Shown here piece by piece: positions 36,790 through 55,423 of a stretch of 64,000 nucleotides of DNA (its first letter is position 1; each line of letters opens with the position of its first letter). The notes below the pieces were generated by a model. That model did not search any database. It worked only from the letters and a program-made list of their open reading frames with translations, and was not told the DNA's origin. The stretch comes from Atribacter laminatus (lineage in GTDB: Bacteria > Atribacterota > Atribacteria > Atribacterales > Atribacteraceae): the NCBI RefSeq assembly GCF_015775515.1, contig NZ_CP065383.1, positions 1,488,001 to 1,552,000 of the forward strand, given 5' to 3'. Made by a program: the position numbers and the translations under genes.

Positions 36790-36866
<77 letters not shown>

Positions 36867-36938
36867 GAGGATGAAACTTTCATTAAGCCAAATTTCCCTC
36901 TCTTCATTTTCCCTAACCTCTCCTTTGCCCTCCCAAGA

Positions 36939-37811: not shown

Positions 37812-37884
37812 TTTGTCACCGAGTTTAATTTATCTCATTTGCTATTCTACGTCAAGACTTAGAATTGGAAAGGGGGAATATGCT

Positions 37885-38079
37885 TTGTTGACCGTTTTAA
37901 AGCGTAAGAGATTGGCAAGAGGATTGAAAAATATGGATGTTGCGGTAAAAGTTGGCGTAAGCGAAACGTATTATTCAAAAATTGAAAATCTAACGACCCA
38001 ACCAAATACACAAGTGATTAAGCGGCTTGAAAAGCTTTTTGCTACATCAGCGGATGAGTTGTTTAAAATTGAGGAGTAA
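37885..38079 (+). CDS. Small XRE-family transcriptional regulator
   Basis: The protein (about 64 residues) is a lone Cro/C1-type helix-turn-helix: LKRKRLARGLKNMDVAVKVG, VSETYYSKIENLTTQPN and VIKRLEKLFATSADELFKI. A TTG start at 37885 (or 37888) lies right after AGGGGGAA; the longer upstream frame has no start signal. It is divergent from the zinc-ribbon gene and leads the operon-like run to 39196, so it probably controls the element's early genes. Confidence 0.78.
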   Translation: MLTVLKRKRLARGLKNMDVAVKVGVSETYYSKIENLTTQPNTQVIKRLEKLFATSADELFKIEE

Positions 38080-38081
38080 AA

Positions 38082-38165
38082 ATGGAAAAACAACAAGAAA
38101 ATTCCTGGCAGTCACTTTCCCAGCCAAGAGAAGCGGTGGCTACCAGGAAACCAAAAGGAGATTGA
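38082..38165 (+). CDS. Tiny ORF between XRE and 38169 genes
   Basis: A 27-codon frame (MEKQQENSWQSLSQPREAVA...) begins three bases after the XRE stop, behind GAGGAG, and ends four bases before the next ATG. Its own 3' end AAAGGAG is the next gene's ribosome binding site. It may be a true micropeptide or simply a translational-coupling leader. Confidence 0.4.
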   Translation: MEKQQENSWQSLSQPREAVATRKPKGD

Positions 38166-38168
38166 AAA

Positions 38169-38534
38169 ATGCAAAACACTCTCAAACCCCAATATGGCTA
38201 TAGAATTATAGAAAATGGTGATGTTTTATTCAAGCGGTGTTTCGAGTCCCGTCATTTTTTGAGAATACCTGAAGCTATAGCCGTTGACGCTGAAATTTTA
38301 AATGAAGCCATAGCCCAGGGAGTTAAATATGTCCAGATTTTTGGAAAGGAATCACAAATGTATTTCACAACATCTATAAAAACATTTAAAGCCCATTGCC
38401 TTGAGTTGGATAGAAAATTTGGCTTACAATATGCTCTCATTTTTCGCTACTGGACAAATTCAAGGGATAAAAAGATTCCTCGAAAATTAACTATCATTCA
38501 GAATTCTCTCCCTTTTTTCAGTGTGGCAAAATGA
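38169..38534 (+). CDS. Hypothetical protein of the element
   Basis: A 121-residue, mixed alpha/beta soluble protein with no recognisable motif. It starts with ATG behind AAAGGAG and overlaps the next gene by four bases (ATGA), so the two are co-translated. Given its place between an XRE regulator and a replication-type HTH protein, it may belong to the element's replication or regulatory module. I do not recognise a family. Confidence 0.65.
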   Translation: MQNTLKPQYGYRIIENGDVLFKRCFESRHFLRIPEAIAVDAEILNEAIAQGVKYVQIFGKESQMYFTTSIKTFKAHCLELDRKFGLQYALIFRYWTNSRDKKIPRKLTIIQNSLPFFSVAK

Positions 38535-39196
38535 TATTCAGAGTAGCGAAAAGCCGAGAAATCCCCTATGTGATGTTGAACAAATGTGCCATATATGATA
38601 ACTCCCTTAGTTTTAAGGCTAAGGGAGTATTGGTGTATCTCCTAAGTCGGCCTGATGACTGGCAAATATATGAAAGCGAGATTGTGAAACATTCAACCGA
38701 TGGCAAGGCCTCAGTTAGGGCAGGAATCAAGGAATTAATCACTCATGGTTATGTAATACGTCAAAGGAGAAGGACTGAGAAAGGAAAATTTCAGGGTTAC
38801 ATTTACAATGTCTATGAAGTACCTCCTCAAGCCTTGGAAGCAATGGAAGAAAGAAAATATACGAATGATTCAGCCTTGGAAAACAGCGAATATTTTAGTT
38901 TTGAAGAAATAAAAGAAATAGCGGAACATTATTGCAAAGCATATCAAGAAAAATTCGGGGAACCTCATCCACCTATTGATGATGAATGGAAAAAAAGATG
39001 GGTGAATGAACTGGGCAATTTTTCTGAATTGTGCTCATTATCAGTTGTTGATGTTTTACAAATGATTGATGAGCATTTTGCCCGGGAACTTGGCGAAGGT
39101 TATGATTACAACATCCGGCATTTTGCATCAACAGGAATATTGAAAAATTTGGCCTTTCAAATTGGAGTAGATTCGTTCCTAATGGATGTTATTTAA
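38531..39196 (+). CDS. Replication-initiator-like winged-helix protein
   Basis: This 221-residue protein opens with an HTH_36-type winged helix as in phage replisome organisers and plasmid initiators: VMLNKCAIYDNSLSFKAKGV, LVYLLSRPDDWQIYESEIVK, SVRAGIKELITHGYVIRQRR. The C-terminal part (after residue 120) is helical and acidic, possibly for helicase-loader contact. It overlaps the upstream gene by four bases. A near-palindromic AT/GC motif with two TTTTCCGAAAACGG units follows 80 bp downstream and could be its binding site or an origin. Function is inferred from domain type. Confidence 0.72.
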   Translation: MIFRVAKSREIPYVMLNKCAIYDNSLSFKAKGVLVYLLSRPDDWQIYESEIVKHSTDGKASVRAGIKELITHGYVIRQRRRTEKGKFQGYIYNVYEVPPQALEAMEERKYTNDSALENSEYFSFEEIKEIAEHYCKAYQEKFGEPHPPIDDEWKKRWVNELGNFSELCSLSVVDVLQMIDEHFARELGEGYDYNIRHFASTGILKNLAFQIGVDSFLMDVI

Positions 39197-39273
39197 TTCG
39201 AATACTGTTCAAGGATAGTATCTATGACGATAATATTTCATATTTTTCTTATAATAGAGCGATTTTCACCGAA

Positions 39274-39318
39274 GTCCGATTTTCCGAAAACGGTTTTTCC
39301 GAAAACGGATAATCGGAC
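39274..39318. repeat. Palindrome with tandem TTTTCCGAAAACGG units
   Basis: GTCCGATTTTCCG at 39274 and the complement of GTCCGATTATCCG at 39306 form 13-bp arms with one mismatch. Between and overlapping them are two tandem units of TTTTCCGAAAACGG. Such iterated, dyad-symmetric DNA beside an initiator-like gene resembles an origin or operator. Confidence 0.55.
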
Positions 39319-39374
39319 ACTACTAAATAATGATTTAACTAATTATTGAAGGAACTAAATATTTAAAAGGAATG

Positions 39375-39399
39375 GTGCGCCATTAAAAAGCTGGCGCAC
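39375..39399 (+). terminator. Hairpin, possible terminator
   Basis: GTGCGCCA and TGGCGCAC form a perfect 8-bp stem with a 9-base loop, followed by CTTCCCCCTTTATTTT. It lies about 180 bp after the initiator-like gene and could end that operon. Confidence 0.45.
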
Positions 39400-39435
39400 T
39401 TCCCCCTTTATTTTAAAAACAATATAAAAATTTTT

Positions 39436-39618
39436 ATGGTTTTTAAAAGCAACTATATTGATGATGACGTAAAGATAATGACCCTTCAAAATATCCAAAT
39501 TGGAAACGAAAATAACCCGGCCATTAATCTGGGCGGGTTTAGTGAGAGTAGCCGAGGGGGAGAACCCGGGATTTTCCATTTATTGGAATTTTTTAAAGAT
39601 AAAAATGAAAGCGAGTGA
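39436..39618 (+). CDS. Short hypothetical ORF (weak)
   Basis: A 60-residue frame ends six bases before the next gene. The product is polar, with a Gly-rich middle (LGGFSESSRGGEPGIF). No ribosome binding site is visible at either ATG (39436 or 39478), so coding is doubtful; it may be leader DNA of the following small HTH gene. Confidence 0.25.
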   Translation: MVFKSNYIDDDVKIMTLQNIQIGNENNPAINLGGFSESSRGGEPGIFHLLEFFKDKNESE

Positions 39619-39624
39619 AAATAA

Positions 39625-40011
39625 ATGGAACCGAAAAGCGGAAAATTGAACCGAAAAATGGAAACGGCCATTGTGGCCCTCCTCAACCAACCTACCATCA
39701 CCCTGGCTGCTGAGGACGCCGGAATATCGGAAACCACCCTTTGGCGGTGGTTGCAACGTGGGGATTTTGCCAAAGCCTATAGAGAAGCCCGGAAACAAGC
39801 GGTCAACCAGGCCATAGCCCATATTCAAAGAATATCAGGTGAAGCGGTGGACACCCTCCGGGAAGTGATGAACGATGGAAAGAAGGAAACAGCCCGAGTG
39901 ACAGCAGCCCGGGCCATCTTAGAACTTACCCTCAAGGCTTATGAAATTGAGGACCTCGAGGAACGCTTAGAAGCCCTGGAAGAAAGGATGAGGAACAATG
40001 AACACCATTGA
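39625..40011 (+). CDS. Phage-like HTH protein, terminase-small-subunit type
   Basis: The 128-residue protein has an N-terminal helix-turn-helix (ITLAAEDAGISETTLWRWLQ at residues 25-44) of the phBC6A51 type often found in phage terminase small subunits and transposon-borne repressors, then an ISGEAVDTLREVMNDGKKET helical part and a C-terminal coiled coil (EDLEERLEALEERM). No large terminase follows, so a packaging role cannot be assumed. The next gene overlaps by 14 bases. Confidence 0.7.
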   Translation: MEPKSGKLNRKMETAIVALLNQPTITLAAEDAGISETTLWRWLQRGDFAKAYREARKQAVNQAIAHIQRISGEAVDTLREVMNDGKKETARVTAARAILELTLKAYEIEDLEERLEALEERMRNNEHH

Positions 40012-40273
40012 GCGAAGACTCAAAAATTTGGAATCTCAAATTCCAATACCCAGAATGAAGAGAGATGATGATTTTGCTGAGGTTATATCCTCAGACCCGG
40101 TTTTTCTTGAAATGGCATTTAAAATACGGGAATTTATCCGGAAGAACCCGGGGAAGAAAATTCCTGATGAACTCCCCCAAGACCTTATTGAGGCCTGGGA
40201 AAGGGAAACATCAAAAGTATTGATTACTCTCCCAGAGGAAAAAATCAAAGCCCTGGAAGAGGGAGTAGACTAG
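39998..40273 (+). CDS. Small hypothetical coiled-coil protein
   Basis: A 91-residue acidic protein whose start overlaps the upstream HTH gene by 14 bases, with that gene's GAAAGGATGAGGAA stretch as ribosome binding site. It begins MNTIERRLKNLESQI, a short coiled coil, and ends in a helical EEKIKALEEG. It is likely co-expressed with, and may bind, the HTH protein. No family is recognised. Confidence 0.6.
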   Translation: MNTIERRLKNLESQIPIPRMKRDDDFAEVISSDPVFLEMAFKIREFIRKNPGKKIPDELPQDLIEAWERETSKVLITLPEEKIKALEEGVD

Positions 40274-40289
40274 GAATTATAAGCTTAGA

Positions 40290-40415
40290 GTGAAGCAGTT
40301 AGAAAAAAGAATCAAGTTAAACCAAATTTGCAATCCGGAAATGCTGATATCAGATAACTACCCGGATATTGAAAGTTATAAACAGAAAATTAAAGACCTA
40401 AAAGAGCAAAGATAA
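40290..40415 (+). CDS. Tiny coiled-coil ORF (possible)
   Basis: A 41-codon frame with a GTG start codes VKQLEKRIKLNQICNPEMLI and ends SYKQKIKDLKEQR, again a Lys/Glu-rich helix. It follows the 39998 gene by 16 bp. There is no clear ribosome binding site. The codon pattern looks coding, so it may be a small third member of this run or a fragment. Confidence 0.35.
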   Translation: MKQLEKRIKLNQICNPEMLISDNYPDIESYKQKIKDLKEQR

Positions 40416-40446
40416 TCCCCAGTTGTGGCGGTTCAATTTATTGACT

Positions 40447-40653
40447 CTAAGGAAGATGTGAGATAAATCGGATTAATTCCCGAAGCGAAGCCCGATATTT
40501 CTTTTGACGCTTTCTATGTTCGGCTAACAGTTTCTGCATATATACCGGAAACACAATTCGCCTTTTGTTGTCGGTGGTTTTCGTTGTTTGACGTACAAAC
40601 TGCTCGTTATATGCTACAAGGGCGTTGATTATGATATTAGCGGGTAGACTCAT
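40447..40653 (-). CDS. Small basic hypothetical protein
   Basis: A 68-residue, strongly basic protein (VYMQKLLAEHRKRQKKYRAS). I took ATG 40653 as start; the frame extends further upstream only with TTG or GTG codons, and no start has a good ribosome binding site. It converges with the small-gene run and diverges from the restriction-modification cassette. It may be a nucleic-acid-binding protein or a fragment. Confidence 0.4.
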   Translation of the reverse strand: MSLPANIIINALVAYNEQFVRQTTKTTDNKRRIVFPVYMQKLLAEHRKRQKKYRASLRELIRFISHLP

Positions 40654-40843
40654 TCGAGGGGGGACAAGAACGACATAACGATATATGCGAAAAAGAGAGT
40701 GTGAGGTATATATAATGATACCTTGCACTATCAACTATATATCAAGCAATAATCACGATATTATAACCTTTTTTTGATATTTTTACTTACGTTTTGGTAT
40801 AATAATATAGGTTATTTGTAACATGGTGCAGGAGGTTAGCGAA

Positions 40844-41065
40844 GTGGCTATAAGCTATAACAAACTATGGAAATTGTTAATAGATAAAGGTATCAAAAAA
40901 ACAGAACTAAAAACGCTGGCGGGAGTCAGCACAAACGTAATCGCCAAGTTGGGCAAGAACAACCCTGTTTCAATGGAAACGCTGGCTAAAATTTGTACCG
41001 CCTTAAATTGCGATATATCCGACATCGTAGAAATGACGGGTGACACAGGAAACGGGGGTAAATGA
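40844..41065 (+). CDS. XRE-family regulator of the restriction-modification cassette
   Basis: This 73-residue Cro/C1-type protein (NKLWKLLIDKGIKKTELKTL, AGVSTNVIAKLGKNNPVSME, TLAKICTALNCDISDIVEM) is of the YozG/short HTH_26 type. GTG 40844 follows AGGAGGTTAGCGAA; the ATG 21 bases earlier lacks a site. Its stop is one base before the methylase start, so the genes are coupled. It may act as a controller protein that delays nuclease expression after entry into a new host; this is inference. Confidence 0.82.
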   Translation: MAISYNKLWKLLIDKGIKKTELKTLAGVSTNVIAKLGKNNPVSMETLAKICTALNCDISDIVEMTGDTGNGGK

Positions 41066-41066
41066 C

Positions 41067-42116
41067 GTGGCAGGTAACAGCAACTTGAACGATTCCGCAA
41101 GGAACAAACAGGACGAGTTTTATACTCAATTATCGCTTATTGAGAGTGAACTAAAATATTACAAGGGACATTTCAAGGGCAAAGTCGTTTTGTGTAATTG
41201 TGATGACCCCTTTGAAAGTAACTATTTCAAATATTTTGCAATGAACTTTAATTCGTTAGGATTGAAAAAGCTGATTGCGACTTGTTATGCAACGTCGCCG
41301 ATTATCTATACACAGCTGGATATATTCGATACTGAAACTGTTGCCGGTAAAGAAAGTAGCAAGAGAAAACCATACAAGATTGAAATCACAGAGGTTACAG
41401 ACGAAAACCAAGACGGGCGTGTTGACCTTTCCGACGTAGAATACCTTTTAAGAAATCATAAAAACGTCCTTACCCTATTGGAGAGTGACGGTGATTTTCG
41501 TTCCCCTGAATGTGTCGAACTTTTGAAGCAATCTGATATTATTGTAACTAACCCGCCCTTTTCGCTGTTCCGCGACTATATAGCACAACTAATGGAACAT
41601 GGAAAAGAGTTTTTAATAATCGGCAATTTGAACGCCGTTAAATACAAAGAGATTCTGCCTTTGTTTATGACTGACAAAATATGGCTTGGCAATAATAGCG
41701 GGCATTACTGGTTTAGGGTTCCCGACACATACGAAGAAAAGGCGACAGATTTTAAGATTGATGAAACAGGGCAAAAATGGCGCAGAATGGGTAATATCTG
41801 TTGGTTTACTAACCTTGATATGGAAAAACGTCACGAAGATATGACCCTTTTTAGGACGTATTCTCCCGATATTTACCCGAAATATGATAATTACGACGCA
41901 ATAGAGGTTAGCAGAACTGCCGATATACCTTGCGATTATCACGGTGTTATAGGTGTGCCAATTACATTTATGACAAGGCATAATCCGGCACAATTTTCTA
42001 TTGTCGGAGTGTTAAATAGCGGTAGTGGCAATGAGTATGATTATGCGAAAGCGATACTAAACGGCAAACAACTATATGCAAGAATTCTAATTCGCAGAAA
42101 GCAGGGGGAAATATGA
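41067..42116 (+). CDS. Adenine-specific DNA methylase, EcoRI family
   Basis: The 349-residue protein matches the EcoRI-methylase family (PF13651): N-terminal KQDEFYTQLSLIESELKYYK, FKGKVVLCNCDDPFESNYFK and the catalytic NPPF at residues 162-165 (IIVTNPPFSLFRDYI), then WLGNNSGHYWFRVPD. It uses S-adenosylmethionine to make N6-methyladenine at its recognition site, protecting DNA. GTG 41067 directly follows the regulator's stop with GGGGGT upstream and matches the family N terminus. The nuclease gene overlaps its stop by four bases. The recognition sequence is unknown. Confidence 0.9.
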   Translation: MAGNSNLNDSARNKQDEFYTQLSLIESELKYYKGHFKGKVVLCNCDDPFESNYFKYFAMNFNSLGLKKLIATCYATSPIIYTQLDIFDTETVAGKESSKRKPYKIEITEVTDENQDGRVDLSDVEYLLRNHKNVLTLLESDGDFRSPECVELLKQSDIIVTNPPFSLFRDYIAQLMEHGKEFLIIGNLNAVKYKEILPLFMTDKIWLGNNSGHYWFRVPDTYEEKATDFKIDETGQKWRRMGNICWFTNLDMEKRHEDMTLFRTYSPDIYPKYDNYDAIEVSRTADIPCDYHGVIGVPITFMTRHNPAQFSIVGVLNSGSGNEYDYAKAILNGKQLYARILIRRKQGEI

Positions 42117-43207
42117 AAATCAAATTACATGAAATACCCGTTAGCGAAGTTGTTGAGGGTTACATAGACAGCGCGGAAAATGGCGTAGTCGGTTACAACG
42201 GCCGCTTAAATATTCGCCCTGCATTTCAGCGTGAGTTTATCTATAAGGACAAGCAACGTGATGAAGTCATTCGCTCGGTGAAAAAAAACTTTCCGCTCAA
42301 TGTTATGTATTGGGTAAAGAGCGACGACGGTAATTTTGAGCTTCTTGACGGGCAACAGCGCACAATGAGCCTTTGCCAATATGTGAATGGCGATTATTCC
42401 ATAGACCATATGGGCTTTGATAACCTGACACAGACGGAAAGACAACAGATTTTAGACTATCGCCTAATGATTTATATTTGTGAGGGGACGGACAAGGAAA
42501 AATTAGACTGGTACACAATCATAAACATAGCGGGCGAGCGGTTGACTGCGCAGGAGTTACGCAACGCCATTTATACCGGGGAGTGGCTCACAGAAGCAAA
42601 GAAATATTTCAGTAAAACAGCCTGCCCTGCATACGCCATAGCAAGTGATTATTTGAACGGTTCGCCAATCCGTCAAGATTACCTTGAAACGGCTATCCGC
42701 TGGCTTGCGTCGCGCGACGGCAAGGAAATTGAAGATTATATGGCAGAACACCAGCACGACACTAATTGTAATGAACTATGGCTTTATTTCCAGGCTGTCA
42801 TAAATTGGGTAAAAGCAACTTTCACCGAATACCGAAGCAAGGAAATGAAAGGGCTTGAATGGGGTATTTTCTACAACAAATACAAAGATGATAAGTACGA
42901 CCCGAAACAACTTGAAGCTCGAATTGTTGAACTTATGGATGATGAAGATGTAACAAAGTATTCCGGCATATATGAATATCTGCTTGACGGGGACGAACGA
43001 CATTTAAGCATAAGAGCGTTTACCCCGAAAATGGCACGGGTAGCATATGAGCGGCAAAAAGGTATTTGCCCGAAGTGCAAAAAGCACTTTGAAATTGCCG
43101 ATATGCAGGCAGACCACATAACCCCATGGAGCAAGGGCGGCAAAACAATAGTTGAAAACTGTCAAATGCTATGCGCTGATTGTAACAGACGCAAAAGCAA
43201 CGTCTAA
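42113..43207 (+). CDS. DUF262-HNH endonuclease, likely restriction enzyme
   Basis: This 364-residue protein has an N-terminal DUF262 domain with LDGQQRT at about 78-84, a ParB-like fold that in GmrSD/BrxU enzymes acts as an NTP-dependent sensor. A C-terminal HNH nuclease follows: CPKC at 319-322, ADH at 333-335, ENCQMLCADCNRRKS. The four-cysteine frame binds zinc and His335 is the likely catalytic residue. It overlaps the methylase by four bases, which strongly suggests it is the partner restriction enzyme. A methylation-sensitive target is inference. Confidence 0.85.
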   Translation: MKIKLHEIPVSEVVEGYIDSAENGVVGYNGRLNIRPAFQREFIYKDKQRDEVIRSVKKNFPLNVMYWVKSDDGNFELLDGQQRTMSLCQYVNGDYSIDHMGFDNLTQTERQQILDYRLMIYICEGTDKEKLDWYTIINIAGERLTAQELRNAIYTGEWLTEAKKYFSKTACPAYAIASDYLNGSPIRQDYLETAIRWLASRDGKEIEDYMAEHQHDTNCNELWLYFQAVINWVKATFTEYRSKEMKGLEWGIFYNKYKDDKYDPKQLEARIVELMDDEDVTKYSGIYEYLLDGDERHLSIRAFTPKMARVAYERQKGICPKCKKHFEIADMQADHITPWSKGGKTIVENCQMLCADCNRRKSNV

Positions 43208-43948
43208 TGCGATTATCGCGGGTTATCTTCAAGTATCCTTTTATGGATATAAGCGACAAACAAGGAACTAGCAAACAATAGATGATAAACCCTGTAATAT
43301 CAAGTTTTATCGCCTGTTATATATTTTCTTCTCGGAAGATACCACAACCAAAACCTGCTTTTCTTCTCGAACCAATTTATACCATCACACGCTATATGAT
43401 GATATCAGTTTAAATGGCCAATGTTAAGTTATACACGCAATAGGAAGCCCTACAAGCCCTCATATAATGGTGAGCGGTGGTTTTATATGCCTTTGAAAAA
43501 TGAGGGTAGCTTATGCAGCCTTAAAATGAAAGATAATAAGTAGATGGTTCATGTAGGTTTATACAAGAGAGGAAAAACTATATAGGTTCCTAAAGTAGAG
43601 AATAACCCTCCATTTTTTTCCTCCACAAATTTAAAATATTACAAAACTATGAAAATACTTATCAAAAGTATGGTAAAACAGCATAATTTAAGAGCATTAT
43701 TCACTGTTAAATGTGTTAATAAATATAATTTTCTACCACCTAAAATATAGCTATATATCAATATAAATTATATCCTCTCATTAATGAAATGCTAAAAAGT
43801 GGATGGTATTTATTTTACATTGGTTCCTATAACCGACATTATGTAAAGAAAAAGAAGGTGGTGGTGGGGAAAAAGAAGAATATCTATAAGTTTTAGAACG
43901 CTATGATAAAATAATTATAACATATTTTAAGTGATATGGGGTGAGGGT
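43208..43948. other. Gene-free region
   Basis: About 740 bp without a coding frame of note. The right half is very AT-rich (near 43600-43770). I saw no strong hairpin terminator after the nuclease gene, no repeats shared with the chromosome, and no promoter that stands out. Confidence 0.5.
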
Positions 43949-44155
43949 ATGCCAAAAGTTGTATTTGGGAAAGAGTATTATAACATCAAGGAAATATCAG
44001 AAATGCTTGGTATTACAGATGTCACTATCCGGAGTTATTATTCATCCGGGAGAATGAAAGGGGTTAAATTGGGGAATGCTTGGTATTCCACCCAGGAAGA
44101 TATCGAGGATTTCTTAAACACCAGGACCAAACCGAGGAATAAAAGAAAAAAGTGA
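43949..44155 (+). CDS. Excisionase-like HTH protein
   Basis: A 68-residue winged HTH of the MerR/excisionase type: YYNIKEISEMLGITDVTIRS, YYSSGRMKGVKLGNAWYST and EDIEDFLNTR, followed by a basic tail. ATG 43949 lies just behind GGGGTGAGGG; a GTG 18 bases earlier has no site. It precedes the probable nuclease gene by 64 bp on the same strand and may regulate it, or act as a recombination directionality factor for the element. Confidence 0.78.
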   Translation: MPKVVFGKEYYNIKEISEMLGITDVTIRSYYSSGRMKGVKLGNAWYSTQEDIEDFLNTRTKPRNKRKK

Positions 44156-44219
44156 GAAATCAAGGGAGATTTTTTGTTTTTTTTATAAATACTAAACAAG
44201 ATTGGTTACTTGAAATTAT

Positions 44220-45407
44220 ATGAAAAAACCAGATTACCTTGTTTTGAACAAACCACAAAAATACCCATGGAATATAGCCTCTGGATATTGGGGTAATTAC
44301 TTAATTGAAAATGAGCTCGATGATTTTCAAAAACAAAGAAGAGATGAATGGCTAAAAAATATTTTTAGACTCTCAAGAACAAAATTAAATGAATTTATAA
44401 GTAATAATTTTAGAAATTCTGAGGATAAAACACTAATAAAAAATCTCCTTAAAGAGCATGGTATTTTTGTTGAAACTTTTTTTATTAAATCAATAAAAGA
44501 TAGGATTATAAGTGAATGTGGGAAACATGACTTTGCCGTATCGGAATTTCAGAATATTTTGTCTGAAGCCTGGGGATATGATGTAAAAGTTAGAGATAAA
44601 TTTGATATGGTTTATCGAATCTCATACCATATTTATGAGCAAGAGGTATTAATTAGTTTATGTGATTCACAAATATTTCACGATTTATTAAATTGGTATG
44701 AAAATTATAAAGAATATGTATTATGCAAACTTTGTAGAAGCAATTTTCGAATTATAGATTTACCAGAATGGGTTTATTTAGGTTCAAATGGATGTAAGGA
44801 ATGTTGTTTTTGTTGTAAGGTTTTGATGTCTCCAAACAAGAAGGAATTATATGAATTAATACCATTATTTATATCTAAATGTGGATTTATACCTGATTCA
44901 AAAGCAAGTCCAGTAAATATTTCTTTTACTTCAAGAATACAAAAAGGCAAGTTGATTGATGTATTTCGAGCTTACGCAAACATGGGAGGCATAAAGCATG
45001 TTAAAAGTAAATTTGGTTCATGGTTTAAAGCTTTAGTCATTACAAAAACTTTACCCAATGGAGTTTTAATCACTCCCAGGGGTATTAGATGTATAGCATC
45101 TGATGGCCACGTTTGTCATTCCATCGAGGAACAATATATAGATAATTGGTTAACCAATCATAAAATAAAACACGAACGTGAACCATTTTACCCAAAGCAC
45201 TTTATATACAATCCATCTGGGAAAAGAAGAGCGGATTGGATAATAAATGGTAAATATATTGAATATTTCGGATTATCAGGGGACAAAATATATGACAGAA
45301 AAGTTGAAGAGAAACTGCTTTTATTAGCAGAAAACAAGATTGATTATATTGCTATTTATCCAGCCAACCTAAGCGGATTATCGACTGTATTTAAAGATTT
45401 TTTATAA
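44220..45407 (+). CDS. Probable PD-(D/E)XK nuclease with cysteine cluster
   Basis: This 395-residue protein has no obvious close named family. Residues 165-200 hold a cysteine-rich knuckle (C169, C172, C192, C195, C196, C198, C199) likely to bind zinc. Residues 230-300 carry repeated WFKALVITKTLPNGVL-like motifs typical of DNA-binding modules of restriction or homing-type enzymes. The C-terminal 95 residues look like a PD-(D/E)XK fold: E303/E304 in SIEEQYIDNW, D339 in KRRADWII, E348 in KYIEYFGL, K361/K365. It is AT-rich and flanked by two excisionase-like genes. A DNA-cutting defence or mobility function is inferred. Confidence 0.7.
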   Translation: MKKPDYLVLNKPQKYPWNIASGYWGNYLIENELDDFQKQRRDEWLKNIFRLSRTKLNEFISNNFRNSEDKTLIKNLLKEHGIFVETFFIKSIKDRIISECGKHDFAVSEFQNILSEAWGYDVKVRDKFDMVYRISYHIYEQEVLISLCDSQIFHDLLNWYENYKEYVLCKLCRSNFRIIDLPEWVYLGSNGCKECCFCCKVLMSPNKKELYELIPLFISKCGFIPDSKASPVNISFTSRIQKGKLIDVFRAYANMGGIKHVKSKFGSWFKALVITKTLPNGVLITPRGIRCIASDGHVCHSIEEQYIDNWLTNHKIKHEREPFYPKHFIYNPSGKRRADWIINGKYIEYFGLSGDKIYDRKVEEKLLLLAENKIDYIAIYPANLSGLSTVFKDFL

Positions 45408-45517
45408 TTTTAAAAACATCTTAACAAAAAATTATCTAAAAAATAAAATGGCTAGGAGCTCATTTGGAGGTCTTATGATTTAGCAGAACAAAAAAACTTC
45501 CGAGTTCCCAGCCAAAA

Positions 45518-45691
45518 CTATTTTACCATAGAACTTTTGATAAATTCTTGTAAATCAGATTCTGAAATTCTATACTCACCACCAAATTTATAAGCCCGCA
45601 ACCTTTTTTCTTTAATTCTCCTTTTTATTGTAAATTCTGATACATTTAGTTTTTGAGCCACTTCTTTGACCGTCAAAAAATCTTTATCCAT
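45518..45691 (-). CDS. Excisionase-family DNA-binding protein
   Basis: A 57-residue HTH_17 protein: FLTVKEVAQKLNVSEFTIKR, RIKEKRLRAYKFGGEYRISE and DLQEFIKSS. It starts at ATG 45691 with AAGGAG nine bases upstream; an ATG nine bases earlier abuts the site. Convergent with the nuclease gene. Small proteins like this often serve as excisionases (Xis) of tyrosine-recombinase elements; the integrase itself lies 8.5 kb away. Confidence 0.82.
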   Translation of the reverse strand: MDKDFLTVKEVAQKLNVSEFTIKRRIKEKRLRAYKFGGEYRISESDLQEFIKSSMVK

Positions 45692-45952
45692 ATGTATCAT
45701 CTCCTTTATTTATTATAAAAAGTATTCATAAATAAGTCAAAGTATTATAACATAACTATTGACAAAGCAATATATAGCAAATATAATAAATTCATAGTTG
45801 AGTAATATTTTGGGATAGACCCACTCGTATACTCAAAAAGGTCCACCATGAGTATCAAATAGGCCCACCTTGGTCATGGAGCGATCCACCTGACATATAA
45901 TGAGGAAATACACTGTAAAGTGTAAATCTTCATTAGGAGGCTGATCAAATAA

Positions 45953-47506
45953 ATGATCAAGTATCGAGAAATTCTTCGGCTTCACAGCCAAGGTGTGAGT
46001 CAACGTGGCATTGCTGCCAGTTGCCAGTGCTCATGGACCACAATCCGTAATGTGGTTGAACGGGCAGAAAGGCATGAGATTTCATGGCCTTTCGATAAAA
46101 ACATGTCGGATGCAGATCTTCAGGAACTCCTTTTTCCGGAAAAAAGGAGTCAGTCCAATCGAAAAATACCGGATTGCGAATATGTTCATAAAGAAATGGC
46201 CAAAAGTGGTGTCACCTTAAGTTTGTTGTGGCATGAGTACCATGAACAATGCCGCTTCAATGGTGAAATCCCACTCATGTACAGCCAATTCTGTCGGTAT
46301 TATCATAAGTATGCCAATACCACCAAAGCCACTATGCGCATTAAGCGCAAACCCGGTGAAATGCTGGAAGTGGACTGGGCTGGAAAGACTGGTTTTATTG
46401 TTGATAATCTAACCGGTGAACTTATTCCAGCCTATATCTTCGTAGCGAGCCTATCTTGCAGCCAGTATGCCTATGTAGAAGCCTTCCTGTCAATGGATAT
46501 GGAAAGCTGGGTCAATGCTCATGTTCATGCGTTCAAATACTTTGGTGGAGTGGCCAGAATCCTCGTGCCAGACAATTTAAAAACCAGTGTAGATAAAGCC
46601 TCTCGACCAGATCCCAAGATTAATAGAACCTATCAAGAAATGGCCGAGCATTACGGGACAGCAGTCATTCCAGCCCGAGTCAGGCGCCCCAAAGACAAGC
46701 CCCATGCCGAAAGTACGGTGGGTATTATTTCCACCTGGATCATTGCCTCTTTGCGAAACCAACAGTTCTTTTCATTACACGAACTGAATAGCGCCATCCG
46801 TCTTAAGCTGGAAGAATTCAACCAGAAACCTTTTCAAAAGAAGCCGGGAAGCAGGAAAAGCGCCTTCCTAGAAGAGGAAAAAGCACTGCTTTTGCCTTTG
46901 CCTACTTCCCCATACGAGCTTGCCACCTGGTCAACGGCGTCCGTACAGTACGATTATCACATAATTGTGGATAAAAATCACTACTCAGTGCCCTATGAGT
47001 ACATCCGGCATCAAGTGGAGGTACGTATAACCAGCAAAACTGTTGAAGTTTTTTACCACAATCATCGCATTGCTTCCCATATTCGGATTCGCGGTCAGGA
47101 AGGCCAGATTGTCACGGTACCGGATCACATGCCAGAGAAACATAAACAGTACCTGGCTGTAAATGCTGATCATTTTAGGAATTGGGCTGCTTCCATTGGA
47201 CCTCATGCCGTCATTGTGGTGAATGCTCTTTTGTCAGCATCAAGAGTTGAGAAACAAGGTTACCGTTCTTGTACATCGCTTATGAAACTCGCTGACAAGT
47301 ATTCTTTATCCCGCTTTGAAGAAGCGTGCCAGCGGGCACTTTGTTACACGCCCAGTCCGAGTTTCAAAATCATCCAGACCATCCTCAAAACCGGTCAGGA
47401 TAGAATATCAGTCCAATCAGATCGACAAAAAGCGACAAAAGACAATCCCAACATCTACGGATTTGTCCGGGGTGCCGGCTACTATGGAGGAAAAGACAAT
47501 GATTAA
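45953..47506 (+). CDS. istA: IS21-family transposase IstA
   Basis: IstA is the DDE transposase. The 517-residue protein begins with HTH regions (LHSQGVSQRGIAASCQCSWT near residue 11), then the rve core: Asp in MLEVDWAGKTGF (about 142), Asp in ARILVPDNLKTSVDK (about 206) and Glu in KDKPHAESTVGIIS (about 243), followed by a C-terminal beta-barrel. The frame is intact. Its end overlaps istB by eight bases. Confidence 0.95.
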   Translation: MIKYREILRLHSQGVSQRGIAASCQCSWTTIRNVVERAERHEISWPFDKNMSDADLQELLFPEKRSQSNRKIPDCEYVHKEMAKSGVTLSLLWHEYHEQCRFNGEIPLMYSQFCRYYHKYANTTKATMRIKRKPGEMLEVDWAGKTGFIVDNLTGELIPAYIFVASLSCSQYAYVEAFLSMDMESWVNAHVHAFKYFGGVARILVPDNLKTSVDKASRPDPKINRTYQEMAEHYGTAVIPARVRRPKDKPHAESTVGIISTWIIASLRNQQFFSLHELNSAIRLKLEEFNQKPFQKKPGSRKSAFLEEEKALLLPLPTSPYELATWSTASVQYDYHIIVDKNHYSVPYEYIRHQVEVRITSKTVEVFYHNHRIASHIRIRGQEGQIVTVPDHMPEKHKQYLAVNADHFRNWAASIGPHAVIVVNALLSASRVEKQGYRSCTSLMKLADKYSLSRFEEACQRALCYTPSPSFKIIQTILKTGQDRISVQSDRQKATKDNPNIYGFVRGAGYYGGKDND

Positions 47507-48242
47507 TTCTACGACCATGAACAAGCTGCATGACATGCGACTCTCCGCTATGGCGGATGCTTTCAAACGCCAACTGTCTGATGAGAAATATCAGGAGCTA
47601 TCGTTTGAAGAACGGGTTGGTATTCTTGTTGATGTGGAATGGGCTAAACGCAGAAGCAATAAACTGCTCCATCTCATTAAAAAAGCAGATTTCCGCTATC
47701 CTCAGGCTAGCATTGAAGATATTGAATACCATGCCGACAGGAAACTAGATAAGGCACAAATCCTACGGCTATCTGGGTGCGCTTACATCCAGGAGAAACG
47801 CAACCTCATCATCATGGGTGCCTCTGGAAACGGGAAATCTTATGTTGCCTGTGCTTTTGGTATGGCGGCTTGTCGCAACTATTATACCGTTAAGTATATC
47901 CGACTACCGGATCTTCTGGATGAACTGTCAGTGGCTCGAGGTGAAGGTGTCTATCAGGTGGTGATGAAGAAGTACAAAAAGGTTGGCTTACTCATTTTGG
48001 ATGAATGGCTCTTAACTCCACTTAAAGACACCCAGGCAATGGATCTCCTTGAGATCGTTGAAGCAAGACATCAGAATGCTTCTACTATTTTTTGCACCCA
48101 ATTTGCTCCACGTGGGTGGCATGAAAAGATCGGCGAAGATACACTAGCAGATGCCATTCTTGATCGTATTGTCCATGATTCCTATACCATCCTTATTGAC
48201 GGCAAAGTGTCAATGAGGGAACGACATGGGATTAAAAATTGA
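47499..48242 (+). CDS. istB: IS21-family helper ATPase IstB
   Basis: IstB is the AAA+ ATPase that selects target DNA and activates IstA. The 247-residue protein has Walker A MGASGNGKS, Walker B GLLILDE and the DnaC-like IstB fold. I start it at ATG 47499 behind GGAGGAAAAG, overlapping istA by eight bases; the longer upstream frame is a shadow of istA. It is intact, so the element may be mobile. Confidence 0.95.
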   Translation: MINSTTMNKLHDMRLSAMADAFKRQLSDEKYQELSFEERVGILVDVEWAKRRSNKLLHLIKKADFRYPQASIEDIEYHADRKLDKAQILRLSGCAYIQEKRNLIIMGASGNGKSYVACAFGMAACRNYYTVKYIRLPDLLDELSVARGEGVYQVVMKKYKKVGLLILDEWLLTPLKDTQAMDLLEIVEARHQNASTIFCTQFAPRGWHEKIGEDTLADAILDRIVHDSYTILIDGKVSMRERHGIKN

Positions 48243-48633
48243 GCCAGAACTAAGTAATTAAGAGTGTATTTATGTCTGCCGGTTAAAGAGGCTGATGGAT
48301 AGTACCGACCTCTTGTGGACAACCCTCCGACCAAAACATGTTGTTCACGCTCTCCACAGCCTCGGCATCTGGTGTTCTATAGAAATCTTAATCTTGTTCC
48401 TTCAAACTACCCATCAAAGAGTACTATTCTCAGAACAGTAAAACTCATGATTCGGAAAAGTGGGCTTATAGCTATTGTGGTTCATTTAAACCGTCATATA
48501 TAGCTATGGAGTTAACGTATGCACCTAGTGGATTTATTTGGTGCACTCGATGGGTCTAAAACATCATACTACTGGGTTTATCATAAGACAATAAACACAT
48601 AGCAGAACAAATTAACAAAGGGAGGTCTTCCAC

Positions 48634-48972
48634 ATGTTAAAAGCAATGCTCAACACCACTACCGAGGACCGGGTAGAAAAAGCTCTGTTCGGCCTTCTCC
48701 ATCAGGACTACAAAGTTAAGTTTATCAATAACCACCTAGCCCGGATTAAGAATCACAAAGGGTCATATCTGGTGGACTACGTTGAAGGCGTGTGCAGCTG
48801 CCCGGACAGCATTTATCACGGCCAGGTTTGTAAACACGTGGTCCAAGCGAGAATCATGGCCGAAATGCACAAGCTCATTATCCAACACCAAGGCGTTTTG
48901 GCCAAAGTAAAAGAGCCGGCCGAAGTAAAAACCGAAAATCCACAGGTTTATTTAATGAAAGGCCTGAAGTAA
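48634..48972 (+). CDS. SWIM zinc-finger protein
   Basis: The 112-residue protein consists mainly of a SWIM domain: KVKFINNHLARIKNHKGSYL, then the zinc site CSCPDSIYHGQVCKH (CxCx(n)CxH, residues about 54-68) and a short helical tail. SWIM domains bind DNA or proteins, and stand-alone SWIM proteins are common on plasmids and phages. It starts at ATG behind AAAGGGAGG. It leads a small pair with the 49005 gene, right after the IS21 element. Confidence 0.82.
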   Translation: MLKAMLNTTTEDRVEKALFGLLHQDYKVKFINNHLARIKNHKGSYLVDYVEGVCSCPDSIYHGQVCKHVVQARIMAEMHKLIIQHQGVLAKVKEPAEVKTENPQVYLMKGLK

Positions 48973-49004
48973 TCCGGGCCCTTCCCTTTTAAGGAGGAAA
49001 GAAA

Positions 49005-49289
49005 ATGATGAGCCTTAATGAAATCCTCAATCAAATAGCCTTGGAACGGATACCGGGAAAAAAGGGATGCTATGGCAAGGAATATGACGGACTTCAAGGG
49101 AAAGAGCACATTCTTTCAGAAAAGCTAAAAAATAATCTCCCCAAAGAATCCGTTCAGTTGTTTAACGAAATTTCCAACACCAGCTGTGACATGGGAGCCA
49201 TTATGGAAGAAGTAAGTTACAAGTTGGGATTTGCCGATGGGATACGGTTTTTACTTGTAACGGTAATTGAGTGGATGCCCAGGGGATAA
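49005..49289 (+). CDS. Small DUF6809-like protein
   Basis: The 94-residue helical protein follows the SWIM gene by 32 bp, with AAGGAGGAAAGAAA before its ATG. The order of helices ending SYKLGFADGIRFLLVTVIEW resembles DUF6809-type proteins of Firmicutes mobile elements; the resemblance is by memory and the role is unknown. A good terminator 50 bp downstream closes the two-gene unit. Confidence 0.65.
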   Translation: MMSLNEILNQIALERIPGKKGCYGKEYDGLQGKEHILSEKLKNNLPKESVQLFNEISNTSCDMGAIMEEVSYKLGFADGIRFLLVTVIEWMPRG

Positions 49290-49337
49290 ATTAAAATTTT
49301 TAAGAAATAGTAGTAGAGTTTGTACTATAAAAAATAT

Positions 49338-49368
49338 AAGGTCAGGGTTCATCTCCCTGGCCTTTTTC
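49338..49368 (+). terminator. Rho-independent terminator
   Basis: AAGGTCAGGG and CCCTGGCCTT form a stem with one G-G type mismatch around a seven-base loop, followed by TTTC. It lies about 50 bp after the 49005 gene and ends the SWIM-DUF unit. Confidence 0.75.
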
Positions 49369-49695
49369 ATTAGAGAAATAATCATTAAGCGTGAATAATT
49401 CAGCATATATTTGGTTATAAAATTATAATGTTCATTTAGAAATTATATTAAATTCTTTGGAAATGAATTACCCCAGAATAACCACACACCATGACAATTC
49501 TTAATTAACTTACTTCCACCTTTACAAAACTGAAATGTTTTATTTCGTCAAAGAAAAATTCCTCGAGCAAAGATTGAGATAGGTTAATCTATCTTTGGAA
49601 GAATATATAAGAATTACCCTAATGGAAGGAATGTGATATCTTCATTTTATCGCTATTCCTTCCAGGATGGGAATTTTAATAGAGGAGGGAGAATC
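49369..49695. other. Gene-free stretch
   Basis: About 330 bp between the terminator and the next gene. The sequence is AT-rich with no coding frame, repeat or clear promoter. Confidence 0.4.
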
Positions 49696-49968
49696 ATGTT
49701 ATTTGTTGTGTTGTGTAACGCCAAAGGTGGGACGAGCAAAGAAAGAACCGAGCGTCGGATGACCTGGAAAGCTCCGGAAGGAACAAAGTTAATCGGTGAA
49801 TATTGGCTCACGAATGAATACCCCAATGTGGTCCAGATTATTGAAGCCGATAACGTGCAGTTAATGTTAAATGCCATTTCAGATTGGGATGATTTTTTTG
49901 ATATCAGTATTTATCCTGCAATTACTGCGGAAGAAGGGATGAAAAATATCCAGGAGATGATGAAATAA
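49696..49968 (+). CDS. DUF3303-like small protein
   Basis: The 90-residue protein starts MLFVVLCNAKGGTSKERTER and continues with APEGTKLIGEYWLTNEYPNV and IIEADNVQLMLNAISDWDDF, the pattern of DUF3303 ferredoxin-like-fold proteins of unknown function. I chose ATG 49696 behind AGAGGAGGGAGAATC; the upstream part of the frame is not conserved in style. An IS4-family element begins 24 bp past its stop. Confidence 0.8.
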   Translation: MLFVVLCNAKGGTSKERTERRMTWKAPEGTKLIGEYWLTNEYPNVVQIIEADNVQLMLNAISDWDDFFDISIYPAITAEEGMKNIQEMMK

Positions 49969-49991
49969 GCATGTAAATAATAAATAGTTAC

Positions 49992-51509
49992 TAACTCAAC
50001 TTTCGCACTAAAATAAATGCTGAAAAACCTTGATTTTAAAGGGTTTTTTAATGAAAACACCCCTCCTTTCTGGTAGAATTGACTTAAGGAAAAAAACCAA
50101 TCACCACAAAGAGAGAGGTGTCTTCATGACTATCCTACCAGAAAATTTGAAAAATGAAAGGACCTTGTTACCCATGTTTTCCTCCTTTATGAAGGAGTTT
50201 AAAGTGAACCAACTGTTTCGAAAATGCCATATGAACAAAAAGAAAGGGTTCCCAGTCAAAGACGTCTTTCAGATGATCTTTCTCCTAGTCTTTACTCAGA
50301 AAAACGTTGCTGGTCTTCTCCAATCTCGACATCCCCTTTTCCAAGGAAAGAAAGACACTCTTTACCGTTTCCTCCACAAGACCAGTGGGAGCTGGCGAAA
50401 ATTGCTCTTTCTTTTGAGTACCAAAGTAGTCTCTGAAGCGCTCCTTCCTTTTACCAGTTTGAAACGCTACACCTGGGTGGTGGATGATTCCCCCTATGAA
50501 CGGCCTCGGAGCTTGAAAGTTGAAGGGCTCTCTCGATTCTATGATCACGCCCAAGGACGGTTCAGTCGGGGTTTCAGAATGCTCACTTTAGGACTCACCG
50601 ATGGTGCTACATTCATTCCCTTTGCTTTTTCATTGTTAAGTTCTCACCAAAAAGAAAACCAGCTCTGTCCCATGGATGCCTCCGTTGATGGACGAAACAA
50701 AAGAGCTCGTCTTCGGAAAGAATCCCAAGAAAAAGCTCCAGATGTCTTCTTCAACCTCCTGGATGGAGCCTTGAAACACTGTCCTTTGGTCTCAACTATT
50801 CTCTTTGATAGTTGGTTCAGTTTTCCAGCCCTCATCCGCAAATGTGCTCTTCGCGGATTATCAGTGGTGTGCATGCTCAAAAACACCCCAAAAATTTACT
50901 ATTCTTTTGGTGGAAAAGTTCTTTCTCTTTCCTCTCTTTTCACCAGAATTCAGAAAAGACCACACGGCAATATCATTGGATCGGGTGTCGTGAATCTCAA
51001 TCTCACTGGGAAACCACTTTTAGCTCGGATTGTCTTTGTCCGAAGTGAAAAACAAAAATCTCAATGGTTGGCACTGCTTTCAACTGATCTGTCTCTTTCT
51101 GAAGACGAGATCGTCACCCTCTATGGGAAACGCTGGGATATCGAGGTTTTCTTCAAGATGGTGAAATCGGTCTTGAAACTCACTCGGGAATTTCAGGTTC
51201 GATCCTATGATGCTCTGGTATCCCATACCAGTATCGTCTTTATCCGCTATATCATGCTCGCGGTTATTGCCCGGAGAAACACCGATCCCCGAACCTTTGG
51301 CGAGCTTTTCTATGCCTGCTATGATGAAATTCAGGATATCACTCTTATGGAAGCACTCACTCTTCTTCTTGAGCTCCTGAAGACGACCATCAAACAGATT
51401 CTTGTCCTTTCAGAAGAAAAAGTCAAAGAGCTACTCATCTATTTTGTAAATAGTCTTCCAGCATGGTTGAGAGAAAAAGTGCTATTATTGAACTGCGAAA
51501 GTTGAGTTA
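49992..51509 (+). mobile_element. IS4-family insertion sequence
   Basis: The 1,518-bp element has perfect 16-bp terminal inverted repeats: TAACTCAACTTTCGCA at 49992-50007 and its complement at 51494-51509. The flanks (AAATAGTTAC and TAATAATTAC) agree at 8 of 10 positions, compatible with a decayed 10-bp target duplication. It contains one transposase gene whose stop lies inside the right repeat. Confidence 0.9.
50126..51505 (+). CDS. IS4-family transposase
   Basis: The 459-residue DDE transposase shows Asp in KRYTWVVDDSPYER (about 115), Asp in STILFDSWFSFPALI (about 228) and the IS4 Y-R-E-K signature YGKRWDIEVFFKMVK (about 333-347). I chose ATG 50126 behind GAGAGAGGTG; the upstream extension crosses the terminal region and has no start signal. 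The frame is complete. Confidence 0.93.
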   Translation: MTILPENLKNERTLLPMFSSFMKEFKVNQLFRKCHMNKKKGFPVKDVFQMIFLLVFTQKNVAGLLQSRHPLFQGKKDTLYRFLHKTSGSWRKLLFLLSTKVVSEALLPFTSLKRYTWVVDDSPYERPRSLKVEGLSRFYDHAQGRFSRGFRMLTLGLTDGATFIPFAFSLLSSHQKENQLCPMDASVDGRNKRARLRKESQEKAPDVFFNLLDGALKHCPLVSTILFDSWFSFPALIRKCALRGLSVVCMLKNTPKIYYSFGGKVLSLSSLFTRIQKRPHGNIIGSGVVNLNLTGKPLLARIVFVRSEKQKSQWLALLSTDLSLSEDEIVTLYGKRWDIEVFFKMVKSVLKLTREFQVRSYDALVSHTSIVFIRYIMLAVIARRNTDPRTFGELFYACYDEIQDITLMEALTLLLELLKTTIKQILVLSEEKVKELLIYFVNSLPAWLREKVLLLNCES

Positions 51510-51682
51510 CTAATAATTACCTCCCGGGACAGAGAAATCGTTCCGGGGGATATTTTCGTTTCAACCCTTTTGAAGTGAAGCCAATTTTTTATAATTCATT
51601 ATAATTATCTGATTATTTCTATAATTATCTGATTGAATTTAAAATGAAAATAATCTATTATTTATATGAGGGGGGTGTTTAA

Positions 51683-52123
51683 ATGGTTAGTGTGTTTGAT
51701 GTAGCTGCTTTTATTATTGACCAATTGGGACCAATAACTGCAATGAAGCTTCAAAAACTTGTCTACTATTGCCAAGCTTGGTCTCTGGTGTGGGACGATA
51801 CTCCTCTATTTGAAGAAAGAATTGAGGCCTGGTCAAACGGTCCGGTGGTACCTGCACTTTTTGAATTTCACAAGGGACAATATATTGTTGATTCAATACC
51901 GAATGGGGACCCAGAAAAACTTAATAAAAATCAAAAAGAAACAGTAGAGGCTGTATTAGTTTATTATGGAAAAAAGTCTTCCCGATGGTTAAGCGATTTA
52001 ACTCACATGGAAGACCCTTGGAAAAATACCCGAGCTGGTATTTCTAATGACGAAAGAAGCAATAGAGAAATAACTCTTGAATCAATGGCAGAGTATTATA
52101 GTAGCTTGTCACCAGATTTTTAA
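51683..52123 (+). CDS. Panacea-domain (DUF4065) antitoxin
   Basis: The 146-residue protein is a Panacea (DUF4065/SocA-like) domain: ITAMKLQKLVYYCQAWSLVW, ERIEAWSNGPVVPALFEFHK, SSRWLSDLTHMEDPWKNTRA and ISNDERSNREITLESM. Panacea proteins neutralise many unrelated toxins, often encoded next door. It starts with ATG behind GAGGGGGGTG. A 145-residue gene begins 12 bp downstream on the same strand, making a two-gene toxin-antitoxin operon likely. It lies immediately after the IS4 element. Confidence 0.9.
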   Translation: MVSVFDVAAFIIDQLGPITAMKLQKLVYYCQAWSLVWDDTPLFEERIEAWSNGPVVPALFEFHKGQYIVDSIPNGDPEKLNKNQKETVEAVLVYYGKKSSRWLSDLTHMEDPWKNTRAGISNDERSNREITLESMAEYYSSLSPDF

Positions 52124-52135
52124 AAAATCGTTTCT

Positions 52136-52573: not shown

Positions 52574-52850
52574 CTGTTACTCCTTTCTCTTTTTTTCCGT
52601 GTAAATATATTAAAAGGTTTGCCTCTTTACTCACCTTCTTTGTATTTTCCCTTATAAGCACCCAATACCTTTTTTGAGATTTATAATATCCTGCTCGTAG
52701 TTGAAAAAAATATTTGATATTTTTTCTATTCGATTCTAATCATGAATGAAATTATTCAATTAGAAAGTAATTAATTGAGAAATATAGCAATTTAATTATA
52801 ATCTATAGTAAATTAAGAATTTTTTTCAAATTTTAAGAATGAGGATAAGT

Positions 52851-54164: not shown

Positions 54165-54200
54165 TCTCTTCTATTTAGTAATAAATTCGTTATCTAACTA

Positions 54201-55124
54201 TTATATATTCTTCACTCTCTTCTTATTAAACAGATTTACCGGTGATGCGGTTTTATGCTCCCTCTTCAAATCCTCCCCATTTAACGCCAAATACCGTTTG
54301 GTCATATTTAAATCAGCATGGCCCATGGTTCTTTGTAATGTAAACACATTTCCACCATTGCGAAGGTATAGAAGAGCAAAAGAATGGCGCAAGGAATACG
54401 GAGTAATAGAATGGCCAAGTTGATGGCTATATTGTTTTAACCGATGGGCCCAAGAAGTTTCATGAAGAGGTCTTCCTTCATAGGAACAAAAAACCGGTAT
54501 ATTATCATTCCAGGTGGAAAGGCGGACCTTTAATAATTTCTGAATATAGGTAGCGGTCAAGGGTGAAATGGGAACGGTCCGAGTGGCTTTGGTCTTGGCT
54601 ATTTCCTTTCTGATGGTGACTTCAAGGCCGGGAAGGTTAAAATCTTGAGGAAGCAGCGATAACCCTTCCTGGGGACGTATTCCGGTATCCAAGGTTAAGA
54701 GAATAATGCAGTAATCCCGGAGGCCGGCAAAGGTTTTCTTATCGGGGAGTTTTAAAAGCTCAATTAAAACATCCTGGGAAACATTCCGAGCCTTCCCCTC
54801 ATCCTTTCTCTTGGAGAAGTCAATGGGGTTTTTAGGAAGAACTCCAATTTTTACCAGGTAGGAAAAGAAGGACTTGAGGTAAGCCCTCCGGATGTTAAAA
54901 GTAGAGGGGGCGATATTAGAAGTTGAAAAATATTCCTTAACCTTATTGCAAATTGAATGGTAATCGTCAACATCCCCCTGAAAATTCCTAAAGAAGTAAG
55001 AAACGTGAAGCCGATAATCCTTGATAGTTCTTTCCCGGCACCCCTGGACCTTCTTTTCCGTGAGAAACTCAGAGAGATATTCCATCCAGGATAAGATGAT
55101 GAGCAATTTTAGCGTTTTTCCCAT
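54201..55124 (-). CDS. int: Tyrosine recombinase (site-specific integrase)
   Basis: This 307-residue XerC/D-like integrase has an N-terminal SAM-like core-binding domain (residues 15-95) and a catalytic domain with R150 (DTGIRPQE), K179 (AKTKATRTVPIS), R246 (YSLRHSFA), H269 (MGHADLN) and Tyr278 (TKRYLAL). The usual His of the HxxR box is Tyr243, as in many XerC-like proteins. ATG 55124 follows AAAGGGG. The gene sits 93 bp from the right attachment repeat and points away from it. It most likely integrates the element at tRNA-Arg. Confidence 0.93.
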   Translation of the reverse strand: MGKTLKLLIILSWMEYLSEFLTEKKVQGCRERTIKDYRLHVSYFFRNFQGDVDDYHSICNKVKEYFSTSNIAPSTFNIRRAYLKSFFSYLVKIGVLPKNPIDFSKRKDEGKARNVSQDVLIELLKLPDKKTFAGLRDYCIILLTLDTGIRPQEGLSLLPQDFNLPGLEVTIRKEIAKTKATRTVPISPLTATYIQKLLKVRLSTWNDNIPVFCSYEGRPLHETSWAHRLKQYSHQLGHSITPYSLRHSFALLYLRNGGNVFTLQRTMGHADLNMTKRYLALNGEDLKREHKTASPVNLFNKKRVKNI

Positions 55125-55144
55125 TTTAAAACCCCTTTCTAACA

Positions 55145-55156: not shown

Positions 55157-55216
55157 GAGGTTTTTAATGGAAAAATGAAGAATTTTGAAAATGGATTTTT
55201 GGCTTTACGAAGCTTT

Positions 55217-55293
<77 letters not shown>

Positions 55294-55423
55294 GAGGATG
55301 AATTGCGAAATTATTCTAAAGCCTTATGAGCTGCGCGTCAAGTTTCAAATGAGATAAACTTTTCAGCTGGATAAGAAATAGTATAATAGAACGAAGATAT
55401 TATTGAGTAAGGGGGATAATGGT

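Follow-up and report, generated by a model that had tools for sequence, protein, structure and literature searches.

P0001, a 395-residue protein of Atribacter laminatus, represents a family of about 60 loci in many phyla that has no name in the libraries searched, and its predicted architecture consists of a zinc knuckle, a degenerate homing endonuclease associated repeat (HEAR), and a C-terminal nuclease. We consider, with a probability of about 0.5, that P0001 is a single-gene, homing-type, sequence-specific endonuclease that has spread as defence or anti-mobile-element cargo. The gene lies in a stretch of 64,000 nucleotides that was analysed as a whole (hereafter the window), and the positions in Table 1 are counted from its first letter. 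The ORF is real and intact, and an earlier note, made from the letters of the window, had given its position exactly.

Table 1 Features of the P0001 gene and of the island around it, with window positions.
Feature	Position	Strand	Basis
CDS of nuclease P0001, 395 aa	44220..45407	+	ORF; family by homology
Predicted zinc knuckle, aa 169-199 (C169, C172, C195, C198)	44724..44816	+	Cys conservation
HEAR-like DNA-binding repeat, aa 207-277 (P225 ... FGSW268FKAL272)	44838..45050	+	PF18780 in homologues
Nuclease domain, aa 288-390, restriction-type fold	45081..45389	+	AlphaFold, Foldseek, sequence profile
E304 codon, putative catalytic Glu (T7 endonuclease I E20)	45129..45131	+	40/40 homologues
D339 codon, putative metal-binding Asp (T7 endonuclease I D55)	45234..45236	+	40/40 homologues
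E348 codon, putative metal-binding Glu (T7 endonuclease I E65)	45261..45263	+	40/40 homologues
K361 codon, other candidate for catalytic Lys	45300-45302	+	K in 35, R in 5 of 40
K365 codon, candidate migrated catalytic Lys	45312..45314	+	40/40 homologues
Left copy of 86-bp tRNA-Arg(tct) repeat, putative att site of island	36790..36875	-	
EcoRI-type adenine methyltransferase (island context)	41040..42116	+	PF13651 E 1.5e-138; PADLOC MTase_II
GmrSD_N + HNH restriction enzyme (island context)	42113..43207	+	PF03235, PF01844; PADLOC REase_II E 3e-147
HTH_17 regulator/excisionase-like gene, upstream of P0001	43931..44155	+	PF12728 37.7 bits
Excisionase-family HTH gene, convergent with P0001	45518..45700	-	TIGR01764 60.3 bits
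Tyrosine-recombinase-type integrase of island	54201..55124	-	Read by eye; adjoins right tRNA copy
Right copy of 86-bp tRNA-Arg(tct) repeat, putative att site	55217..55302	-	

Cys169, Cys172, Cys195, and Cys198 are each present in 26 of the 28 aligned homologues, and the knuckle that they form is predicted to bind zinc. The cysteine knuckle had been drawn earlier from Cys169 to Cys199; the four conserved residues uphold it, whereas Cys199, like Cys192, is not conserved in these homologues. Behind the knuckle, the HEAR signature residues are kept in P0001 (Pro225 in 26, Trp268 in 24, and Leu272 in 26 of 28 homologues). The corresponding Pfam model, PF18780 (HNH_repeat), matches 14 of 26 homologues with a best E-value of 1.8e-10 and has no match to P0001 itself. 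The WFKAL and ITPRG motifs, once taken for repeated elements, occur one time each: WFKAL is part of the HEAR signature ("FGSWFKAL"), and ITPRG lies in the linker before the nuclease. AlphaFold modelled residues 160-395 of the full-length protein well and most of residues 1-165 poorly. A weak MYB/SANT-like similarity (E ~0.4) was seen at positions 30-89 of the A4 profile, in the conserved N-terminal ILxWW...D region of the homologues, and may mark an additional DNA-binding domain. The full-length profile also matched PRDM9/zinc-finger and MYB entries, which were discounted as due to the Cys pattern or to chance.

The nuclease domain alone was modelled by AlphaFold with a pLDDT of 93.9 and a pTM of 0.83. 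The order of its DSSP elements (H20-31, short strands, E58-60, E63-67, H74-89, and E94-97, in domain numbering) is the alpha-beta-beta-beta-alpha-beta order of the PD-(D/E)XK core fold. The best PDB fold match found by Foldseek was the catalytic domain of the homing endonuclease I-Bth0305I (3r3p; probability 1.00, E 0.029, TM 0.57/0.65, rmsd 3.0 over 94 columns), followed by TnsA (probability 0.97), and BglII and VRR_NUC were also among the matches; these E-values are modest (0.03) and establish kinship of fold, not membership. With the full-length model, the fold matches in the PDB were weak, and the domain model was needed for this comparison.

The sequence profile of the family, searched against the PDB, gave T7 endonuclease I entries as its best match (E 0.0034). 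In this alignment, the known catalytic residues Glu20, Asp55, and Glu65 of T7 endonuclease I lie over Glu304, Asp339, and Glu348 of P0001. These three residues are invariant in the 40 aligned nuclease cores, together with Cys299, Ser301, Gly351, Tyr358, and Lys365. The PD-(D/E)XK-like core proposed in the earlier note thus keeps Glu304, Asp339, and Glu348, and Lys361 is well kept, with Lys giving way only to Arg; it loses Glu303, which is Glu in 1 of the 40 homologues, and gains Lys365, which had not been listed. The position of the ExK lysine, Lys67 in T7 endonuclease I, is occupied by Phe350 in P0001 and by Phe, Leu, Ala, or Trp in the homologues. Judged by conservation, Lys365 in the next helix may be the likeliest replacement. 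The call of a nuclease thus withstood both checks that had been named for it, a structure prediction with a restriction-type core and retention of the listed acidic residues, three of them, in homologues, and we hold with considerable confidence, greater than for any particular role, that P0001 is a nuclease at all.

The earlier note could match the composite to no named restriction or homing family. A match to known kinds is now available module by module, since the modules are the HEAR and a nuclease of the type shared by I-Bth0305I, TnsA, and T7 endonuclease I. I-Bth0305I, an EDxHD/Vsr-type homing endonuclease, resembles P0001 in the fold of the nuclease domain and in the joining of a nuclease to DNA-binding modules. 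P0001 differs from it in lacking the xHD part of the motif, in place of which it has Glu348, Tyr358, and Lys365, and no intron was found at P0001. The EDxHD signature is absent, as P0001 has no His after residue 339; in Vsr, the His of the xHD part is His69, which is paired with Asp51 (PMC11879112). T7 endonuclease I shares the aligned acidic residues, differs in the lysine replaced by Phe in P0001, and has no zinc or HEAR modules. The nearest published description of the family is that of an unnamed, unrecognised outgroup of EDxHD/Vsr HEGs in phage introns, with thousands of unannotated relatives (PMC12350094, 2025). Compared by description only, both have a C-terminal EDxHD/Vsr-like nuclease of ~100 aa behind small DNA-binding domains, whereas the outgroup has CapR/DUF4379/DUF723-like repeats and resides in introns, and the P0001 family has one zinc knuckle and the HEAR and is free-standing in bacterial genomes.

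A nuclease domain of ~90 aa is also held in common with the PADLOC candidate PDC-S69 (and with HEAT_CxxC_PDDEXK, PDC-S68), and 25 of 26 homologues match PDC-S69. The match is not full-length: it spans only model positions ~179-282 of 289, at the C-terminal end, so that only about 100 of the 289 positions align, and the N-terminal parts differ. This match may count in favour of a defence reading, with the reservation that the domain is also common to homing proteins. Neither PDC-S69 nor the HEAR phrase was found in the literature searched.

The sequence of P0001 alone had no match in Pfam, NCBIfam, or PDB sequences, and single-sequence scans of genome contigs and viral contigs with it returned nothing. 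tblastn with P0001 found six actinobacterial plasmids, down to E 7e-27. An alignment-based scan with the core alignment A2 identified 52 genome loci in Actinomycetota, Chloroflexi, Firmicutes, Acidobacteria, Proteobacteria, a Nanoarchaeota MAG, and others, and the corresponding viral scan identified three viral contigs, two of which are identical over the compared stretch. No relative above ~33% full-length identity to P0001 was found in these searches, and most genomes carry one copy.

Comparison of closely related loci reveals how the bacterial branch moves. Of the 71 pairs that are >75% identical across >80% of the ORF (75-93% DNA identity), a set that is non-independent and includes many Streptomyces, 57 showed <10% similarity in both 3-kb flanks. 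In most pairs with unrelated flanks, similarity stops within tens of bases of the ORF edges. Since the flanks are unrelated and the similarity ends with the ORF, the gene moves alone and lands at different places. The pair L020/L021 crosses phyla, with an ORF identity of 83.7% and unrelated flanks, subject to the caveat of possible MAG mis-binning. The pattern fits shuffled cargo better than site-specific homing.

On the other hand, the distant phage members resemble homing genes, since they split tape-measure genes, which are a known homing hot spot (PMC10448857). In the viral contig L060, the gene lies between two tape-measure pieces, which match residues 430-696 and 687-961, respectively, of the intact Perkons protein. 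In L061, the upstream tape-measure piece ends at Perkons residue 684, and the insertion point in the tape-measure gene is thus the same in the two contigs (Perkons TMP residue ~684-696). The behaviour expected of a homing gene, which sits at its target or in an intron of it and shares the site with its relatives, thus agrees with L060 and L061 and not with P0001 or with most close pairs of the bacterial branch. Rfam at gathering thresholds found no known intron class in the tape-measure region of L060 or L061. Intron-encoded homing was also considered for P0001 and was rejected, as Rfam found no intron there. Two further observations were made by eye or on reading frames in these contigs: a GIY-YIG-like ORF lies just downstream in the tape-measure region of L060 (7287-8201, by eye), and the homing ORF of L061 reads further upstream through an in-frame TAG (7100-7540), which may mean a recoded phage.

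P0001 is carried as cargo by an 18.4-kb tRNA-Arg island (36790-55302) with two complete, identical tRNA-Arg(tct) genes at its ends. The gene is flanked by a Type II R-M pair on one side and an IS21-type element on the other, within an AT-rich segment at 43-46 kb with a GC content of ~31% versus ~39% on both sides. An island with other anti-phage genes, as the earlier note had described it, is thus confirmed by the R-M pair and by the identical repeats at the boundaries. The same genome encodes paralogues of the island integrase at other places (88% and 76% identity), which suggest sibling islands. In a congener, the right-hand tRNA flank is present beside a decayed integrase of the same kind, and the tRNA-Arg site therefore seems to have been used repeatedly. 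The HTH genes on the two sides of P0001, both previously called excisionase-type, are real; the upstream gene falls below the curated excisionase cut-off (22.2 versus 28.8 bits) and above that of HTH_17. Clustering of neighbouring genes found no gene common to the P0001 locus and homologous loci, and hence no conserved partner, so that the two HTH genes are probably neighbours of P0001 and not partners.

The island holds several other genes of interest. The R-M pair (41040-43207) joins an EcoRI-type MTase to a GmrSD_N (DUF262)-HNH restriction partner, a seemingly unusual combination. Two insertion sequences were read by eye: the IS21-type element (istA/istB, 45953-48242), which lies directly behind the convergent excisionase-family gene, and an IS4-like element at 50030-51505. 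A gene with a Panacea (SocA-like antitoxin) domain is directly followed by an unassigned ORF of 145 aa (51683-52573), possibly as a toxin-antitoxin pair. Adjoining the integrase, a 441-aa protein read by eye (52839-54164) seems to have pentapeptide-type repeats and then two membrane segments that carry an ion-channel-like pore motif, TTLGFGD.

Defence genes are also found around some relatives. An N4/N6-type MTase and a probable REase lie directly upstream of L020, Fic, C5 MTase, and REase genes lie near L057, and the plasmid members L004 and L005 adjoin an N6 MTase and a Pycsar effector. Matches to Avs3a, AriAB (PARIS), BrxL (BREX), RmrA, and UzuA occur near other family members; the two Avs3a matches can probably be assigned to L008 and L015, a pair with shared flanks. 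Two neighbours that had been taken as BrxL candidates were rejected, since PDB searches gave no BrxL and one of them is a serine integrase. In twenty control stretches taken from the same genomes, kinase- or helicase-type matches predominated among the top 25 families; this comparison, on a small sample and read from those families only, is an association and no proof. The survey of neighbourhoods proposed earlier thus yields defence genes at some loci, whereas many homologous loci have no defence gene in reach and clustering gave no conserved partner. The phrase "defence or mobility nuclease" in the earlier note named the right pair of options: single-gene mobility and the defence neighbours at some loci lean towards defence or anti-mobile-element cargo, and the phage relatives point to homing use.

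In the reading we prefer, the zinc knuckle and the HEAR-type repeat would read a DNA site, probably a long one, and the C-terminal metal-dependent nuclease would then cut, with Glu304, Asp339, and Glu348 assisted by Lys365 or Lys361 in place of the missing ExK lysine. The family does not behave as if fixed to a site and spreads as single-gene cargo among genomic places, some of them beside anti-phage systems. The most likely target of P0001 would be a fixed site carried by a competing phage, plasmid, or rival island, as for the origin-directed nuclease Odn of phage ICP1, a stand-alone enzyme that takes the place of CRISPR-Cas in the sequence-specific attack on a rival element (PMC8263062). Odn is the closest precedent for interference by a stand-alone nuclease; the likeness is one of function only, and Odn differs in belonging to another nuclease family and in being phage-encoded.

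Several of these observations would also suit a free-standing selfish homing endonuclease gene, which cuts the alleles that lack it, enters them through repair, and benefits neither host nor island. The HEAR modules of the homologues, the closeness of the catalytic-domain fold to I-Bth0305I, the phage relatives within split tape-measure genes, the patchy spread with a single copy in most genomes, and the end of DNA similarity at the ORF edges are all in keeping with such a gene. However, homing is site-specific, so close relatives should share an insertion locus, and most pairs at 75-93% identity have unrelated flanks. In addition, P0001 has no detected intron and is neither inside nor directly beside a conserved host gene. 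We consider selfish homing of P0001 rather unlikely.

The R-M genes beside P0001, L020, and L057 and the N6 MTase beside L004 and L005 raise the alternative of an ordinary restriction or R-M accessory enzyme that acts with neighbouring MTases, as an orphan REase or a modification-dependent nuclease. The neighbouring R-M pairs, however, already own a REase and differ in type (EcoRI-like m6A, N4/N6-type, and C5); no methyltransferase was recognised near most relatives, and the family has no conserved MTase neighbour. A cognate MTase of its own, as expected of a Type II REase, is likewise lacking for P0001, the adjacent MTase being already paired with a REase, and such a role appears improbable. 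Slightly less probable still is a repair or recombination nuclease (Vsr-, resolvase-, or TnsA-like) that serves the islands themselves, for example in mismatch nicking or element excision. TnsA among the fold relatives, T7 endonuclease I as the profile match, and the location of P0001 in an integrative element speak for it, whereas an integrase is already encoded on the island, neither a TnsB/TnsC-like partner nor a conserved neighbour was seen, and the HEAR and zinc modules point to sequence reading.

The preferred reading of P0001 as an anti-mobile-element cargo nuclease can be extended to its relatives, although we hold the extension only tentatively and think it doubtful: the family may be a widespread form of single-gene immunity, made of former homing endonucleases that are now fixed-specificity anti-mobile-element nucleases shuffled among islands across phyla. 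If true, a single nuclease family with both life-styles, namely the phage members in split tape-measure genes and the island-shuffled bacterial members, would connect homing endonucleases with bacterial defence and would provide a testable case of selfish-to-defensive conversion. It would possibly also provide a collection of natural nucleases with long sites and a lysine-shifted active site, and would define the architecture of a group that may form part of the large unannotated EDxHD/Vsr-like outgroup (PMC12350094).
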